Assembly: GCA_903891165.1 (NCBI GenBank)
Contig: CAITDR010000155.1
Span: forward strand, 1 to 59,408
Source of the DNA: an uncultured Pseudomonadota bacterium
GTDB lineage: Bacteria > Myxococcota_A > UBA796 > SXON01
Length of the DNA: 59,408 bases
Direction: 5' to 3'
The notes under the pieces are model-generated. The model saw only the letters and a list, made by a program, of their open reading frames with translations. It was not told the origin of the DNA and did no database searches. The first letter of the stretch is position 1. Each line of letters starts with the position of its first letter. The translations under genes were made by a program, and so were the position numbers. Below are positions 7,773-13,886 of this stretch, piece by piece.

Positions 7773-9899
7773 ATGATCTCGAACCTCAAGCTGATCCGCA
7801 ACATCGGTATCAGCGCCCACATCGACTCTGGCAAAACCACCCTCACCGAACGTATCCTCTTCTACACCAACCGGATCCACCAGATCCACGAGGTGAAAGG
7901 CAAGGACGGCGTGGGCGCCACCATGGACTTTATGGAGCTGGAGCGCGAGCGCGGTATCACCATCCAGTCCGCAGCTACCCATGCCTTCTGGTCGGGCTCA
8001 CACAAGTCCCCCACCACGGAAGGGCAGTACCCCGAGCACTTCATCAACATCATCGACACCCCCGGACACGTGGACTTCACCATCGAAGTCGAACGCTCCC
8101 TGCGCGTGCTCGATGGCGCGATCCTGGTGCTTTGTGGTGTGGCGGGTGTGCAGTCCCAGTCCATCACTGTGGACCGGCAGATGCGCCGCTACCGCGTTCC
8201 CCGCCTCGCATTTGTGAACAAGTGCGACCGCCAGGGTGCAAACCCCGTGCGCGCGCGGAACATGTTGGAGGAGAAGCTCCGCCTCAACGCCGTGATGATC
8301 CAGTTGCCCTGGGGCCTGGAAGAGAAGCACAAGGGCCATGTGGATCTGGTGACCATGAAGGCCTACCTCTTTGATGGGGACAACGGCCAGTTCATCACCG
8401 AGCACCCCATCCCTGAAGAGATGGCGGAAGAAGTAGCGAAGTATCGCGAAATCCTGCTGGACAAGGTCTCGATGTACAGCGACGAGCTGACCGAGCAGAT
8501 CCTGGAAGGCGAAGAACATGTGAAGGAAGAGACGGTAAAAGCCGCTATCCGCGCCGGCACCATCTCCCTGAAGCTGGTTCCCGTGCTCTGCGGCTCCGCC
8601 TACAAGAACAAGGGTGTTCAGCGGCTCCTGGATGCGGTCATCGACCTGCTCCCCTGCCCCACCGATGTGCCCAACGAAGCGGTGGATCCCACCAACAACG
8701 ACGCCAAGGTCGAGATCCCCTGTGACCCCAACGGCCCCATGCTCTCTCTGGCCTTTAAGCTGGAAGATGGTCGCTACGGTCAGCTCACCTACCTCCGCAT
8801 CTACTCCGGCTCCGTGAAAAAGGGCGACACCATCTACAACCAGCGTACCAAGCAGCGGATCCGCGTGGGCCGTCTGGTGCGTATGCACGCCAACGAGATG
8901 GAAGAGATCGAGGATGCAGGTGCGGGTGACATCGTTGCGCTGTTCGGCGTGGACTGTGCCTCCGGCGACACCTTCTCCGACGGCAATACCGAGCTGGCCA
9001 TGTCCTCGATCCACGTTCCTTCGGCGGTCATCTCCTTGACCATCAAGCCCAAGAACGCTGCTTCGACCTCGAATATGTCCAAAGCGCTCAACCGCTTCTC
9101 CAAGGAAGACCCCACCTTCCGCGTCAGCTCGGATCCCGACACCGGCGATACCATCATCTCCGGCATGGGCGAGCTGCACCTGGAAGTGTACGTCGAGCGT
9201 ATGAAGCGCGAGTACAATAGCGAGGTGCTCACCTCCCCGCCGCGCGTCGCCTACCGCGAGACCATCACCCAGCGGGCCGACTTCAACTACACCCACAAGA
9301 AGCAGACGGGTGGTTCCGGTCAGTACGGCCGGGTCGCTGGCTTTATGGAGCCCATCGAGACGGTGGACTACGAGTTCCTGGACGATATCGTCGGTGGCTC
9401 CATCCCCCGCGAGTACATTCCTTCTTGCGACAAGGGCTTCAAGAAGTGCCTGGAGAAGGGCGAGCTGATTGGCGCTCCTATCGTGAACATCCGCTGTGCC
9501 ATCAACGACGGCCAGTACCACGCGGTGGACTCCAGCGATATCGCCTTCCAGCTTGCTGCGATCGGCGGCTTCAAAGAAGGGTATGCCAAGGCCAAGCCGG
9601 TGGTGTTGGAGCCCATCATGCGCGTGGGTATCGAAGGACCTGGGGAATTCCATGGCTCGATGGTCGGTACCCTGATGCAGCGCCGTGGCATCATCATCTC
9701 CACTTCGGAAGGTAGCGGGGTTTCCCAGATTGAAGCCCATGTTCCGCTGGCGGAAATGTTCGGCTACTCCACCACCCTGCGTTCTGCAACTCAGGGCAAG
9801 GCCGAGTTCCAGATGACCTTCTCTCACTACGATCAAGCACCCCAGATGGTCATTGATCAGCTCGTGAAGAAGTACCAGGCCGAGAAGAAGAACGCCTGA
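7773..9899 (+). CDS. fusA: Elongation factor G, spd/mitochondrial EF-G1 type
   Basis: 708 residues. GTPase motifs are AHIDSGKT (15-22), RGITI (60-64), DTPGH (95-99) and NKCD (149-152). All EF-G domains are present, to a normal length. The region [16 protein letters not shown] followed by IQSAAT is the signature of mitochondrial EF-G1 and of the spdEFG1 group (spirochaetes, planctomycetes, delta-proteobacteria), unlike the common bacterial EF-G. A small insertion (about residues 74-89) precedes the DTPGH strand. In organisms with this type, translocation is assigned to EFG1 and recycling to EFG2. The gene stands outside a str operon. An ATPase gene follows after two bases, so they are probably co-transcribed. 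Confidence 0.95.
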
Positions 9900-9901
9900 G
9901 G

Positions 9902-11128
9902 ATGCTTCCACAGCCCCCCAGCGAACGCTCCCCCCTCCGCGCGCTCAATTCGGCGCTCGGAGGGGGGTTGCGTTTAGGAGAAGTCGGCCTCGTCTCTGGT
10001 AAAGCCGGAGTCGGGAAGAGTGCTCTTTTGGTGCAGCTTGCGCTGGAGCGCCTGCTGCGTCAGGAGCCGGTGCTGCACGTGGCCCTGCGCTACGGTGTGC
10101 AGCATGTGCGCGACCAGTACGAGAGTATCCTGGAGGGCAGCCTGCGCTCCATGCGGCCCCTGGATCGGGCCGAGGCCCTGCTACAGGTGGAACGTTGTCG
10201 CATCATTCATGCCGCACGGGATGGCGCTTTTTCGGCGGAGCGGCTCTATACCTTGCTGGCAACCCTGGCAGATGTGGTGGAGTTCCGACCGGTGCTGGTG
10301 GTCATCGATGGCTGGGATCCCCAGCCAGCCGACATTGAGGCCCTCCGAGGGAGTCGCTCTCGGAATTTCGCTTCATGGGTAGCTTTTACCCCCGTAGATA
10401 TTGCTTTCCCGCTGAACTTCCCAGGCGATGTGTTGATCGAGGTGGTGCCCGAGCGCACCCACCTGCGTCTGGTACCGCACCGCGTGCGGGAACAAACGGG
10501 CATGTTGCCGCTGCGTCTGGACGGTGCCCAATATGTGGCCCCCGCCGAAGAACGGACGGAGCGCCAAATCAAGCCGGAGGAATGTACACTTTTTACGGGT
10601 GGTGCGGCCGGTGCCGAGGCGACCTTCGGTCAGCTGGCCGAGCGTTGGGGGGTGAAGGAGGTCAACTTCACCTTCCGGGGCCACGTGCAGGCCCACAGCC
10701 GCGGAGCTGTGCCACTTACGGAGGCTGAGCTGGCCGCGGGTGACGTCTCGCTGGCCTATGTGGCCCGCAAATTGCGGCGTTCCTTTGGGGAGAATACCAT
10801 GCTGCGCCGGGTACTCCAAAGCCTCTGGCATCAGGTCAGCCGCGCCGAGCAGATTTTTGTCATCGGTACCATCCAGGAGGACGGCACCGTGACGGGAGGC
10901 ACCGGCTGGGGGGTGGAGCTGGCGCGGATGTGGAACAAGCGCCTTTGGGTCTTTGACCAGGAAAAAGACGCTTGGTACCTCTGGAATGGAGAGGACTGGG
11001 TAGTTGGCCTCCCCACGGTGGATGCCACCAACTACTGTGGGACCGGCTCCCGCAACCTGACCGAAGGCGCCATCCGTGCACTGGAAAGCCTCATGGAGCG
11101 CAGCTTTGGAGCCCGTGACTCATCGTAG
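9902..11128 (+). CDS. RecA/KaiC-like ATPase fused to a SLOG-like nucleotide-binding domain
   Basis: 408 residues. The N-terminal half has Walker A GKAGVGKSA (33-41) after the GGLRLGEVGLVSG strand typical of RecA/KaiC/DnaB-like ATPases, and a Walker B LVVIDGW (132-138). After a linker near residue 220, the C-terminal half has FTGGAAGAEATFG (231-243), GGTGWGV (332-338) and CGTGSRNL (379-386), the glycine-rich loops of a Rossmann-type SLOG/LOG-like (YpsA- or DprA-related) domain. It starts two bases after the fusA stop, so expression is likely tied to fusA. Function unknown: nucleotide sensing coupled to an ATPase is one idea (inference). The last bases overlap a palindromic repeat. Confidence 0.7.
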   Translation: MLPQPPSERSPLRALNSALGGGLRLGEVGLVSGKAGVGKSALLVQLALERLLRQEPVLHVALRYGVQHVRDQYESILEGSLRSMRPLDRAEALLQVERCRIIHAARDGAFSAERLYTLLATLADVVEFRPVLVVIDGWDPQPADIEALRGSRSRNFASWVAFTPVDIAFPLNFPGDVLIEVVPERTHLRLVPHRVREQTGMLPLRLDGAQYVAPAEERTERQIKPEECTLFTGGAAGAEATFGQLAERWGVKEVNFTFRGHVQAHSRGAVPLTEAELAAGDVSLAYVARKLRRSFGENTMLRRVLQSLWHQVSRAEQIFVIGTIQEDGTVTGGTGWGVELARMWNKRLWVFDQEKDAWYLWNGEDWVVGLPTVDATNYCGTGSRNLTEGAIRALESLMERSFGARDSS

Positions 11129-11153: not shown

Positions 11154-12200
11154 CTACTCCGCCCATACCGCACAGAAGAGCAGATCTGTCCCATCTTTTT
11201 CCATCAGCACCGGTGTGGTGCAGTTGGGGAAGGGGGCGGTCTCCACATCGTAGATCGGACTGGGATCCACCTGCCCGCCGTTCTCACGCAGAAGTGTGCG
11301 GGTGACCGGAAGCAGCCCGTCGGGACGCTGGCCATAGAGGGCCAGCATGCCCTCCTCCTCCCGGCAGAAGGGAACGGAAGCCCGATCCCATAGGAAGGAC
11401 TTGGAAAAATTCTCCGGCCCCTCGGCGGTAGCTGCCTCGATCTGCAGCTCGGCAGTGGTGGCAAACAGCCACCAGCCCTGCCCGCCCGGATAGGGACAGA
11501 TCACCGGATCCAGCAGGTTGTCCGCGGTATACACTACCGCTTCCTCCTCAAAGCAGCCCCCTGCCCACCGCGCAGTGGCGATGGGATGTGGCCCGGCCGG
11601 GATTCCGTTGTTCTCACCTTCAACGCGGAGAAAGCGGTAATAGACCGCCTGTAGATTTCCGTCGGCGTCCAGCCAAAGCGACTGGTCGGTGGGCAAGACC
11701 TCCTCCTCCACCATCAGACGGTACCGGTGACTTCCCCAATTCTCCAGGTCCTTGGTGGAGAAAAATGCCAGCTCCCGTGTAATGGGCACCGTTACGCCCA
11801 TGGCCTCCGCGGGCAGTGCGTCGATGCTCACGCTCAAGAGCAGCCCATCTTCTGCAGGAAGAATGCCGAAGGAGGACACATGGATCGCCAGTACCCGGGG
11901 ATCCGCCTCCCAGGTCCGCTCCCCCACCTTGCGCGCCATTCGCAGCTCCCAGTGGGGCGTGCTGGGCAGCTCCGTCGGCAGCAGCAGTGCAGCATAGGGA
12001 CCCGCATCTTCCCAGAAAGAGGCTTCCTCCCACGGGAAACCAGCCACCTCCCGGTCGCAGACCCAGTCCTCCTTGGTGGGCAGCTCGCTGTCCACCGAAC
12101 CGGGCTCACTCTCCTGAACCGGCGGCTCTTCCACTTCCTTGCCTGGCTTCTCGGTGTTCCGACAAGCCAGCAGCAGGAGCAGTAGACCTACTGGCCCCAC
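11154..12200 (-). CDS. Predicted lipoprotein, possibly beta-propeller-like
   Basis: 348 residues with a GTG start at 12200 inside the end of the OmpA-type gene (13-base overlap). MGPVGLLLLLLAC is an uncharged short lipobox signal, followed by an acidic linker rich in Glu and Ser. The body has recurring strands such as ELAFFSTKDLENW, SLWLDADGNLQAVYYRF, DPVICPYPGGQGWWLFAT and TTPVLMEKDGTDLLFCAVW, which read like blades of a glycosidase-type five-bladed propeller, but no catalytic set could be assigned. It is the last gene of an operon with the DUF4398 and OmpA/TSP3 lipoproteins, so an outer-membrane-associated role is likely. Specific function unknown. Confidence 0.65.
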   Translation of the reverse strand: MGPVGLLLLLLACRNTEKPGKEVEEPPVQESEPGSVDSELPTKEDWVCDREVAGFPWEEASFWEDAGPYAALLLPTELPSTPHWELRMARKVGERTWEADPRVLAIHVSSFGILPAEDGLLLSVSIDALPAEAMGVTVPITRELAFFSTKDLENWGSHRYRLMVEEEVLPTDQSLWLDADGNLQAVYYRFLRVEGENNGIPAGPHPIATARWAGGCFEEEAVVYTADNLLDPVICPYPGGQGWWLFATTAELQIEAATAEGPENFSKSFLWDRASVPFCREEEGMLALYGQRPDGLLPVTRTLLRENGGQVDPSPIYDVETAPFPNCTTPVLMEKDGTDLLFCAVWAE

Positions 12201-13354
12201 GGCGAAGGCTGAGCGGGCTGCCCCGGAGGAACGGCCGGCACCACCGCGCCGGGACCGCCGGACACGATGTTGAACTCCACCCGCCGGTTGTTCTGCCGAC
12301 CCTCGTCGGTGCGGTTGGTGTCGATGGGGCGGGTCTCGCCGTAGCCCATGGTCACCATCCGGCTCGGCGCGATGCCACGCTGCACGAGATACTCAAAAAC
12401 CGCGTCTGCACGGGCTTTGGAGAGGCGCTGGTTGAGCGCATCGTCGCCGACGTTGTCGGTGTGGCCAGCAATCTCAATGCGCACCGAAGGGTAGTCCTTC
12501 AGCACCTGGGTCACATCGTCCAGCACGCCGAAGCTGTCGGACAGGATCGTAGCTTTGCCGGTGGCAAAGTTGATGCGCTGCTTGATCACAATCTGGTTGG
12601 CGGTGATCTCAACCCGGGTGGGCTTGCTGTCGGGGCAGCCATCCTCGTCCAGGTACTGGTTCACCGTCTCCGGCTGATCTACGCAGGTATCCTTGTCGTC
12701 GGTAACGCCGTCGCCATCGCGATCATAGACCGGACAGCCGTTCCGCTCGGGCAGACCGCGCTCGTTGGGGCACTGGTCCACGGTATCGGCGATGGTGTCC
12801 AGGTCGTTGTCCAGCTCGGGGCAACCATCGGCATCGTTGTAGCCGTCGCGATCTTCGGGGTCACGAGGGCATGCATCCAACGTGTCCACCACTCCGTCCG
12901 CGTCATCGTCCAGATCAGGACAACCATCGCCGTCTTTGAAGCCGTCCAGGTCCTCCATGTCCCGTGGACACTGATCGTCGGTGTCCACCACACCATCCTT
13001 GTCGGAGTCTCCCGGGGTCACCACGATGGGGCCGGGCGGCGGCTCCACGTAGACCGGCTCGGGAGGAGCGACCGGCACGGCTCCACAAGCAGCCGCGATC
13101 CGGGCATTCTCCAGGGAGACATCCATGTGCTGGCTGGCGCGACGCAGGTTAGCCTGCTGCATCTCCAGCTCGGCAAAAGCGAGGTTCGCCTCTGCGATTG
13201 CCCGCTCGCGAGGAGCACACTGCGTAAGGGTAGCGGCCTGAGCGAGCGCTTCTTTGGTGGCGCTGTGGTTGCTGCTCAACGCGGCCGATGAAACACAGCC
13301 AGGGAGCAGGAGCACCAGACCGAGAATGGAGAAACGAGACATCTTACGGCTCAT
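12188..13354 (-). CDS. OmpA-family lipoprotein with thrombospondin type 3 repeats
   Basis: 388 residues from 13354; the ATG at 13342 (MSRFSILGLVLLLPGC) is an equally good start and gives a cleaner lipobox. A helical N-terminal part is followed by four to five acidic calcium-binding TSP3 repeats (DSDKDGVVDTDDQCP, DDADGVVDTLDACP, DRDGDGVTDDKDTC). The C-terminal OmpA domain has NFATGKATI, IAGHTDNVG, LSKARADAVFEYL and NRRVEF, including the Asp and Arg that contact peptidoglycan. It should tether the outer membrane to the cell wall. It overlaps the upstream DUF4398 gene and the downstream lipoprotein gene, forming a compact operon. Confidence 0.9.
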   Translation of the reverse strand: MSRKMSRFSILGLVLLLPGCVSSAALSSNHSATKEALAQAATLTQCAPRERAIAEANLAFAELEMQQANLRRASQHMDVSLENARIAAACGAVPVAPPEPVYVEPPPGPIVVTPGDSDKDGVVDTDDQCPRDMEDLDGFKDGDGCPDLDDDADGVVDTLDACPRDPEDRDGYNDADGCPELDNDLDTIADTVDQCPNERGLPERNGCPVYDRDGDGVTDDKDTCVDQPETVNQYLDEDGCPDSKPTRVEITANQIVIKQRINFATGKATILSDSFGVLDDVTQVLKDYPSVRIEIAGHTDNVGDDALNQRLSKARADAVFEYLVQRGIAPSRMVTMGYGETRPIDTNRTDEGRQNNRRVEFNIVSGGPGAVVPAVPPGQPAQPSPWGQ

Positions 13355-13718
13355 CCAGGTCGATCACAGGTTCGTTCGTTGGCGGAGTGGTGGGCTGGGC
13401 CGGCGTCGGCAGCCGCTCCTCGGGCACCACTTCGCCCGCATCGGGGATCTGGATGCCATCCGTAGACTTTTTGTAGGCGGCCTGAGACCAGGACAGGCTG
13501 GTACGACAGAGCTGATCCACAGCGCCATAAGAGGAATAGCCATCCTCTTCCTTGGCTTTTTGCAGATACTCGCGTGCCAGCGTAATCTCGTAGAGGGCGC
13601 GCTCTTCGGCCCCCTCAGAGACTGCAGCTTGATACTCACGCTGGGCATTCACCAGCATAAAAGTAGAACGTCCGGCAGTACAGCCGGTCAGGAACAACAG
13701 AGGCAACAGCAGGCGCAT
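13344..13718 (-). CDS. DUF4398-like lipoprotein
   Basis: 124 residues from the ATG at 13718, chosen because GGGAGAAG lies just upstream and MRLLLPLLFLTGC then ends in a lipobox; a longer in-frame reading to 13751 adds an implausible leader. The body (NAQREYQAAVSEGAEERALYE, then ITLAREYLQKAKEEDGYSSY) matches the helical DUF4398 domain, commonly found beside OmpA-type proteins. The C-terminus is proline-rich. It overlaps the OmpA/TSP3 gene. Probably a periplasmic, outer-membrane-anchored partner of that protein. Confidence 0.75.
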   Translation of the reverse strand: MRLLLPLLFLTGCTAGRSTFMLVNAQREYQAAVSEGAEERALYEITLAREYLQKAKEEDGYSSYGAVDQLCRTSLSWSQAAYKKSTDGIQIPDAGEVVPEERLPTPAQPTTPPTNEPVIDLDEP

Positions 13719-13886
13719 CGGCGCTTCTCCCACGGAACCGCGGCGGACCACGGACCATCCCGGTATGTAACCGATCCCGTCTGCTTAAGAATAGCCTGAA
13801 TTCGGCTCTTGTGCATGGGGATTGACAAGGAGAGCTGCTTTCCGCATCCGCCCACTCGGATATATGCAGGCACTTTCGGAGCTTCG

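Follow-up and report, generated by a model that had tools for sequence, protein, structure and literature searches.

A KaiC-like ATPase encoded behind spdEFG1-type fusA genes and fused in many Myxococcota to a SLOG domain

Introduction

Where canonical elongation factor G (EF-G) is missing, translocation and recycling are split between two factors, spdEFG1 and spdEFG2 (PMC3150367, PMC4342817). The mitochondrial translocase has its bacterial sister in spdEFG1. SLOG domains, which bind or process nucleotides, include families of phosphoribohydrolases (PMC9503650). In phages, SLOG domains have been proposed to act on NAD-derived signals (PMC9503650), and those that are DprA-like to bind ssDNA (PMC7824862).

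The window analyzed here, a stretch of DNA of 59,408 nucleotides, contains a gene whose predicted product joins a KaiC-like P-loop domain to a SLOG domain directly behind an EF-G gene (fusA). The fusion shares with the KaiC-like, RadA and DnaB ATPases a P-loop core, Walker A and B motifs and the order of elements, but differs from them in that the catalytic Glu/EE motif is not conserved, in that no accessory domain of DnaB, RadA or KaiC is present, and in that its matches to these families fall far under the NCBIfam cut-offs. Thoeris ThsA (SIR2-SLOG) likewise fuses a SLOG nucleotide-ligand domain to another catalytic domain (PMC9503650), whereas the fusion described here has no SIR2 domain, TIR partner or defence context. 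A sequence-only reading of the window had picked out this gene as a combination that it did not recognise, and we also found no name for the fusion family in Pfam, NCBIfam or PADLOC, and no paper on a link between fusA and a KaiC-like gene or between EF-G and a RecA-like ATPase in Myxococcota in a search of freely accessible journal literature. The domain superfamilies are known; the architecture and the linkage to fusA are apparently undescribed, although an earlier mention may exist.

Results and Discussion

An intact fusion gene follows a fusA gene of the spdEFG1 type

When compared with the PDB, the product of the upstream fusA gene scored highest against human mitochondrial EF-G1 (746 bits), ahead of Thermus EF-G (688 bits) and E. 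coli EF-G (682 bits). This ranking, with mitochondrial EF-G1 ahead of the canonical factors, identifies it as an spdEFG1, which agrees with the spd-type fusA named in the sequence-only reading, and it was the sole near-full-length EF-G found in this 84%-complete assembly. The stop codon of fusA (tga, 9897-9899) and the ATG of the fusion gene at 9902 are separated by two bases, as had been read; this gap leaves no room for a promoter, and a sigma-70-like site was not found in the region. The fusion reading frame begins with ATG and contains zero internal stops, and full-length homologues with 39-59% identity were recovered from most genomes of the same order and, within the same family, from nearly all. 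As the frame is intact and relatives carry homologues at this level of identity, we conclude that the gene is real and conserved. Matches to some part of the protein were found in 72 of 94 relatives, some of them to the P-loop of RadA-like proteins only. We also considered a one-genome oddity or an assembly artefact and rejected both, as the fusion is carried by most relatives, complete Sorangium chromosomes included. In Sorangium cellulosum (L113, L115) it likewise lies behind spdEFG1.

The full-length structure model contained two well-folded domains and a disordered linker at residues 213-219 (pTM 0.53), rather than a single known fold running across both halves. With this pTM and a disordered linker, the relative orientation of the two domains is not fixed by the model. 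The two halves had been read as separated by a linker near residue 220; the separation holds, while its place is better put at residues 209-222. The positions given earlier for the Walker motifs and the glycine-rich loops hold as well (Table 1), and in an alignment of 20 sequences most of these positions fell in invariant or nearly invariant columns, with no case of homologues in which neither motif set is conserved. Downstream of the fusion gene, the opposite strand of the window carries an OmpA/thrombospondin-3 lipoprotein gene (12188-13354) and a DUF4398 lipoprotein gene (13344-13751); the OmpA gene is also close by in some relatives (L003, L006, L010).

Table 1. Features of the fusA/fusion locus, in positions of the window and residues of the fusion protein.
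Feature	Residues	Position	Strand	Basis
fusA, EF-G of spdEFG1 / mitochondrial EF-G1 type		7773..9899	+	all EF-G domains
KaiC-like ATPase / SLOG fusion gene	408 aa	9902..11128	+	open reading frame; homologues
RecA/KaiC/DnaB-like P-loop domain	1-208	9902..10525	+	Pfam, PDB, Foldseek; profile match over 1-216
Walker A, GKAGVGKSA	33-41	9998..10024	+	motif conserved in homologues
KaiC/DnaB catalytic Glu position (R-Y in window)	63-64	10088..10093	+	alignment to phage DnaB and RadA
Walker B, LVVIDGW	132-138	10295..10315	+	acid conserved
Inter-domain linker	209-222	10526..10567	+	pLDDT <50 at 213-219; variable in alignment
SLOG (cpYpsA-like) domain	223-403	10568..11110	+	profile match over 181/181 positions; model; Foldseek
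SLOG motif 1, TGGAAGAE	232-239	10595..10618	+	consensus SGGAxGAE; aligns with SGGQTGVD of cpYpsA
SLOG motif 2, GGTGWGVE	GGTGWGV at 332-338	10895..10918	+	GGTGWxxE conserved
SLOG motif 3, CGTGSRNL	379-386	11036..11059	+	consensus GTGTRxL

The N-terminal half is a KaiC-like P-loop domain without a conserved catalytic glutamate

The RecA/KaiC-like character read from the N-terminal half was borne out by a Pfam match to AAA_25 (2.1e-07, above the cut-off), by a profile of 14 N-half homologues that matched a phage DnaB-like helicase (5.6e-09) and RadA (7e-08) in the PDB, and by Foldseek, for which KaiC was the best fold match to the structure model. The Walker A signature GxGK[ST] occurs in 85/90 homologues (58 of the 59 fused and 27 of the 31 stand-alone ones), and residue 136 of Walker B is D or E in 89/90. 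The domain thus has both Walker motifs of KaiC/RecA-like P-loop ATPases but not their catalytic glutamate, since at the corresponding position after strand 2, a column taken from alignments with phage DnaB and RadA, E is found at residue 63 in just 10 of 90 homologues. As Walker A is kept and the glutamate is not, we favour a switch or an oligomeric scaffold over a fast motor; some rows of the alignment have an acid at the next position, and ATP hydrolysis may persist in these homologues.

The C-terminal half belongs to a new SLOG family whose nearest relative is cpYpsA

Modelled alone, the C-terminal domain gave a pLDDT of 92.5 and a pTM of 0.89, and Foldseek matched this model to 3imk, a putative molybdenum carrier of the cpYpsA fold (prob 0.99, TMq 0.52). 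Models of phage DprA-like and Mo-carrier-like proteins aligned to it with TM 0.76-0.87. The modelled domain is a Rossmann-like alpha/beta sandwich of SLOG topology, the glycine-rich loops SGGxTG and GG(T) of the superfamily are present, and nucleotide binding is predicted. No Pfam cut-off was reached by the C-terminal half (the YAcAr family, PF10686, gave 15.6 bits against a cut-off of 28.2), and hmmscan of the fusion protein returned no match to PF12694 (cpYpsA). Using hhalign, the SLOG family aligned to 17 cpYpsA domains drawn from PF12694 hits with a score of 27.7 and with colinear SGGxTG and GGT motifs, versus 19.6 or less when columns were shuffled (40 versions) and 17.5-18.4 with two unrelated families. 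The SLOG-like identity proposed for this half therefore stands on fold, phage relatives and profile match together, and we assign it to a new family of SLOG domains that is nearest to cpYpsA, the circularly permuted YpsA type, and is not a member of PF12694. A search for cpYpsA in close relatives gave no match, as did its control.

The motifs SGGxxGA[ED] and GGTxxxxxxA...KPxxVxD of cpYpsA and the putative molybdenum carriers (PF12694; PDB 3imk) are colinear with the SLOG domain of the fusion, which differs in having an extra helical insert, tryptophan-rich strands, the GTGTRxL motif and an attached P-loop domain, and in the E of motif 2, which is absent from cpYpsA. Motif 2 (GGTGWxxE) is invariant in 41 cellular SLOG sequences, while motif 1 is usually SGGAxGAE and T232 of the window is a deviation. 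A second KaiC-like domain was considered for this half and rejected, as it has no Walker A and matches SLOG folds when taken alone; the two-domain KaiC alignments that Foldseek returned for the fusion model had an rmsd of 16-23 Å.

The ATPase domain is linked to spdEFG1 across at least four phyla

Among 98 distinct ATPase loci, defined as those with at least 400 bases of upstream sequence, 93 lie immediately behind a fusA gene on the same strand (52 with a fused and 41 with a stand-alone ATPase); four of the remaining five come from one genus and the fifth lies at a contig end. The gap between the two genes is mostly 0-50 nt elsewhere, and the spdEFG1-ATPase pair was found in Myxococcota, Acidobacteriota, Fibrobacterota and Thermodesulfobacteriota. 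In other Myxococcota families the halves are split, with an ATPase of about 229 residues directly behind spdEFG1 and a SLOG gene of about 183 residues elsewhere. Conservation of the position behind fusA thus reaches far beyond the window, but what had been read as a coupling of the whole fusion to fusA holds for the ATPase, the SLOG domain being added by fusion and not itself the coupled part. The old conserved unit is spdEFG1 with the ATPase, to which SLOG is joined as a fused partner in many Myxococcota. In one genus of the same family (g2) the fusion gene lies away from fusA (L155, L156), which is found elsewhere (L223, L224), and one genome (G088) has two spdEFG1 genes (on C128 and C14) with the ATPase behind just one. 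Distances between fusA proteins and between ATPases correlate over 78 loci (r=0.79), a value that plain vertical inheritance would give equally.

We compared gene content in 53 genomes that were searched with the EF-G of the window as query. The ATPase occurred in none of the 28 genomes in which only lower-scoring EF-Gs of other types were found and in 10 of the 24 with spdEFG1, being absent from 14 (13 of them Myxococcota); one genome had no EF-G match. In this set spdEFG1 was called from bands of score and identity, and the genomes include several incomplete metagenome assemblies. As the ATPase was never found with other EF-Gs alone, it appears to need spdEFG1 and not the reverse; with 14 of 24 spdEFG1 genomes lacking it, the ATPase is not essential to spdEFG1. 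No residues of spdEFG1 were found that tell ATPase-bearing loci from the rest, and no consistent replacement gene stands behind spdEFG1 at loci without the ATPase.

The SLOG domain is a partner of the ATPase in Myxococcota

In the 226 Myxococcota genomes that lack the fusion, both halves occur as separate genes in 26, only the ATPase in 17, only SLOG in 7 and neither in 176, a co-occurrence with a Fisher value of 1e-16 that is uncorrected for phylogeny. Fusion and co-occurrence together argue that SLOG is a functional partner of the ATPase. In a quick, unrooted SLOG tree with one very long, uncertain branch, three changes account for the fused state, and the tree is compatible with one old fusion. 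The stand-alone SLOG family gave 566 hits in many phyla in a single scan, without conserved neighbours beyond those at the level of lineages. It was also found in genomes in which spdEFG1 was not detected, from which it follows that its ligand is not specific to spdEFG1. In gp6 and related Acidobacteria (L092, L109, L120) the SLOG gene and a RarA-like AAA ATPase gene on the opposite strand overlap by about 22 nt, and in three further acidobacterial loci (L081, L117, L118) a gene of the LigD 3'-phosphoesterase type lies directly 5' of it. In L106, what looked like a fusA next to SLOG proved to be an antisense frame and was discarded.

SLOG homologues were also found in 70 phage records and belong to PHROG 768 (DprA-like). 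These are homologous along the entire SLOG domain, with 24-34% identity and predicted structures at TM 0.85, but are single-domain proteins or lie inside virion RNA polymerases and giant phage proteins, with no ATPase partner seen, and have Q in place of the motif-2 E in the forms aligned.

A candidate accessory or regulator of EF-G1-dependent translation

Gene linkage ties the KaiC-like domain to spdEFG1 in at least four phyla, and in Myxococcota its partner, by fusion or by co-occurrence, is a cpYpsA-like SLOG domain. We tentatively prefer to read the gene as coding for an accessory or regulator of EF-G1-dependent translation that is co-expressed and binds nucleotides. The P-loop domain would bind ATP or another NTP, and the GGTGWxxE pocket of the SLOG domain would hold a small ligand derived from a nucleotide. 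Occupancy of both sites might alter how the protein acts on EF-G1 or on ribosomes engaged in translation, and elongation could in this way be adjusted to a nucleotide or energy signal; where the halves are separate genes, SLOG would work in trans. The nucleotide sensor of translation or energy state that the sequence-only reading had suggested is likewise an inference. The case for a function with EF-G1 comes entirely from gene context, and adjacency is not the same as physical interaction; the 14 of 24 spdEFG1 genomes without the ATPase and the relocated fusion gene of one genus count against this reading. A bolder version, which we consider unlikely, is a translation module in which spdEFG1 has a dedicated KaiC-like switch that was fused in Myxococcota to a SLOG sensor, gating the translocase by a nucleotide-derived signal. 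If true, such gating would constitute a class of translational control not known before. More generally, a P-loop partner beside spdEFG1 in four phyla points to a layer of EF-G1 control or assistance of which we found no description, and an ATPase behind an EF-G gene in at least four phyla suggests an unrecognised partner of protein synthesis. For the stand-alone SLOG family, which has no known function, the fusion is a first handle on its role.

A doubtful alternative is that SLOG is a nucleotide salvage or clean-up enzyme with the P-loop as a regulatory platform, the position behind fusA providing growth-rate-linked expression only; the same low likelihood attaches to the activity that it might have, that of a LOG-like N-glycosidase on nucleoside monophosphates or ADP-ribose derivatives. 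The GGTGWxxE motif, kept in 41/41 cellular sequences, speaks for an enzyme, as does its resemblance to the GGxGTxxE motif of LOG proteins. So do the wide spread of stand-alone SLOG through phyla where no neighbour is conserved, a pattern like that of a housekeeping enzyme, and the phosphoribohydrolases among SLOG families (PMC9503650). However, the E of this motif is Q in the aligned phage relatives and absent in cpYpsA, and the pocket may only bind; the presence of the ATPase behind spdEFG1 specifically, in four phyla, is left unexplained.

DprA loads RecA, and DprA/Smf resembles the fusion in belonging to the SLOG superfamily and pairing with a RecA-like domain. A RecA-like/DprA-like pair might accordingly serve DNA recombination or ssDNA handling, with adjacency to fusA incidental, which seems improbable. 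It would fit with the annotation of the phage relatives as DprA-like DNA recombination mediators, the N domain being nearest by sequence to DnaB-like helicase and RadA, the RarA-like or LigD-like genes that adjoin SLOG in some Acidobacteria, and the failure to find DprA (PF02481) in the 84%-complete assembly of the window. However, the fusion protein has no PF02481 match and a separate true DprA is present in 52 of 58 relatives and in 27 of 27 good genomes, from which it follows that the fusion is not the DprA of its relatives. In addition, the phage name was given for resemblance in fold, the protein lacks the catalytic Glu, the ATPase when alone consists of no more than a core of about 229 residues, and the link to spdEFG1 is far too conserved for incidental adjacency.

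Still less probable is a role in anti-phage defence or conflict, in which the protein would sense a nucleotide signal and stop translation via EF-G1. In its favour, SLOG domains are part of conflict systems such as Thoeris (PMC7272460; PMC9503650), and phage homologues lie in giant, probably injected proteins as expected of counter-defence. Against it, the gene is largely vertical, mostly single-copy and fixed beside a translocase gene across families, effector domain and mobile context are absent, the only matches of the fusion protein among PADLOC defence models were weak ones to generic ATPases (E of 0.02 or worse), and there is no sign of a defence gene.

Two phage homologues illustrate these settings. 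In Klebsiella phage Pylas the SLOG domain lies inside the virion RNA polymerase gene (L186:6001-6516) and is probably part of an injected protein, and in crAss-like phage cr113_1 (NC_055896.1, L187:4001-4522) it is found at the end of a giant protein, where three in-frame TAG codons are consistent with TAG encoding glutamine and were taken as Q in the alignment.
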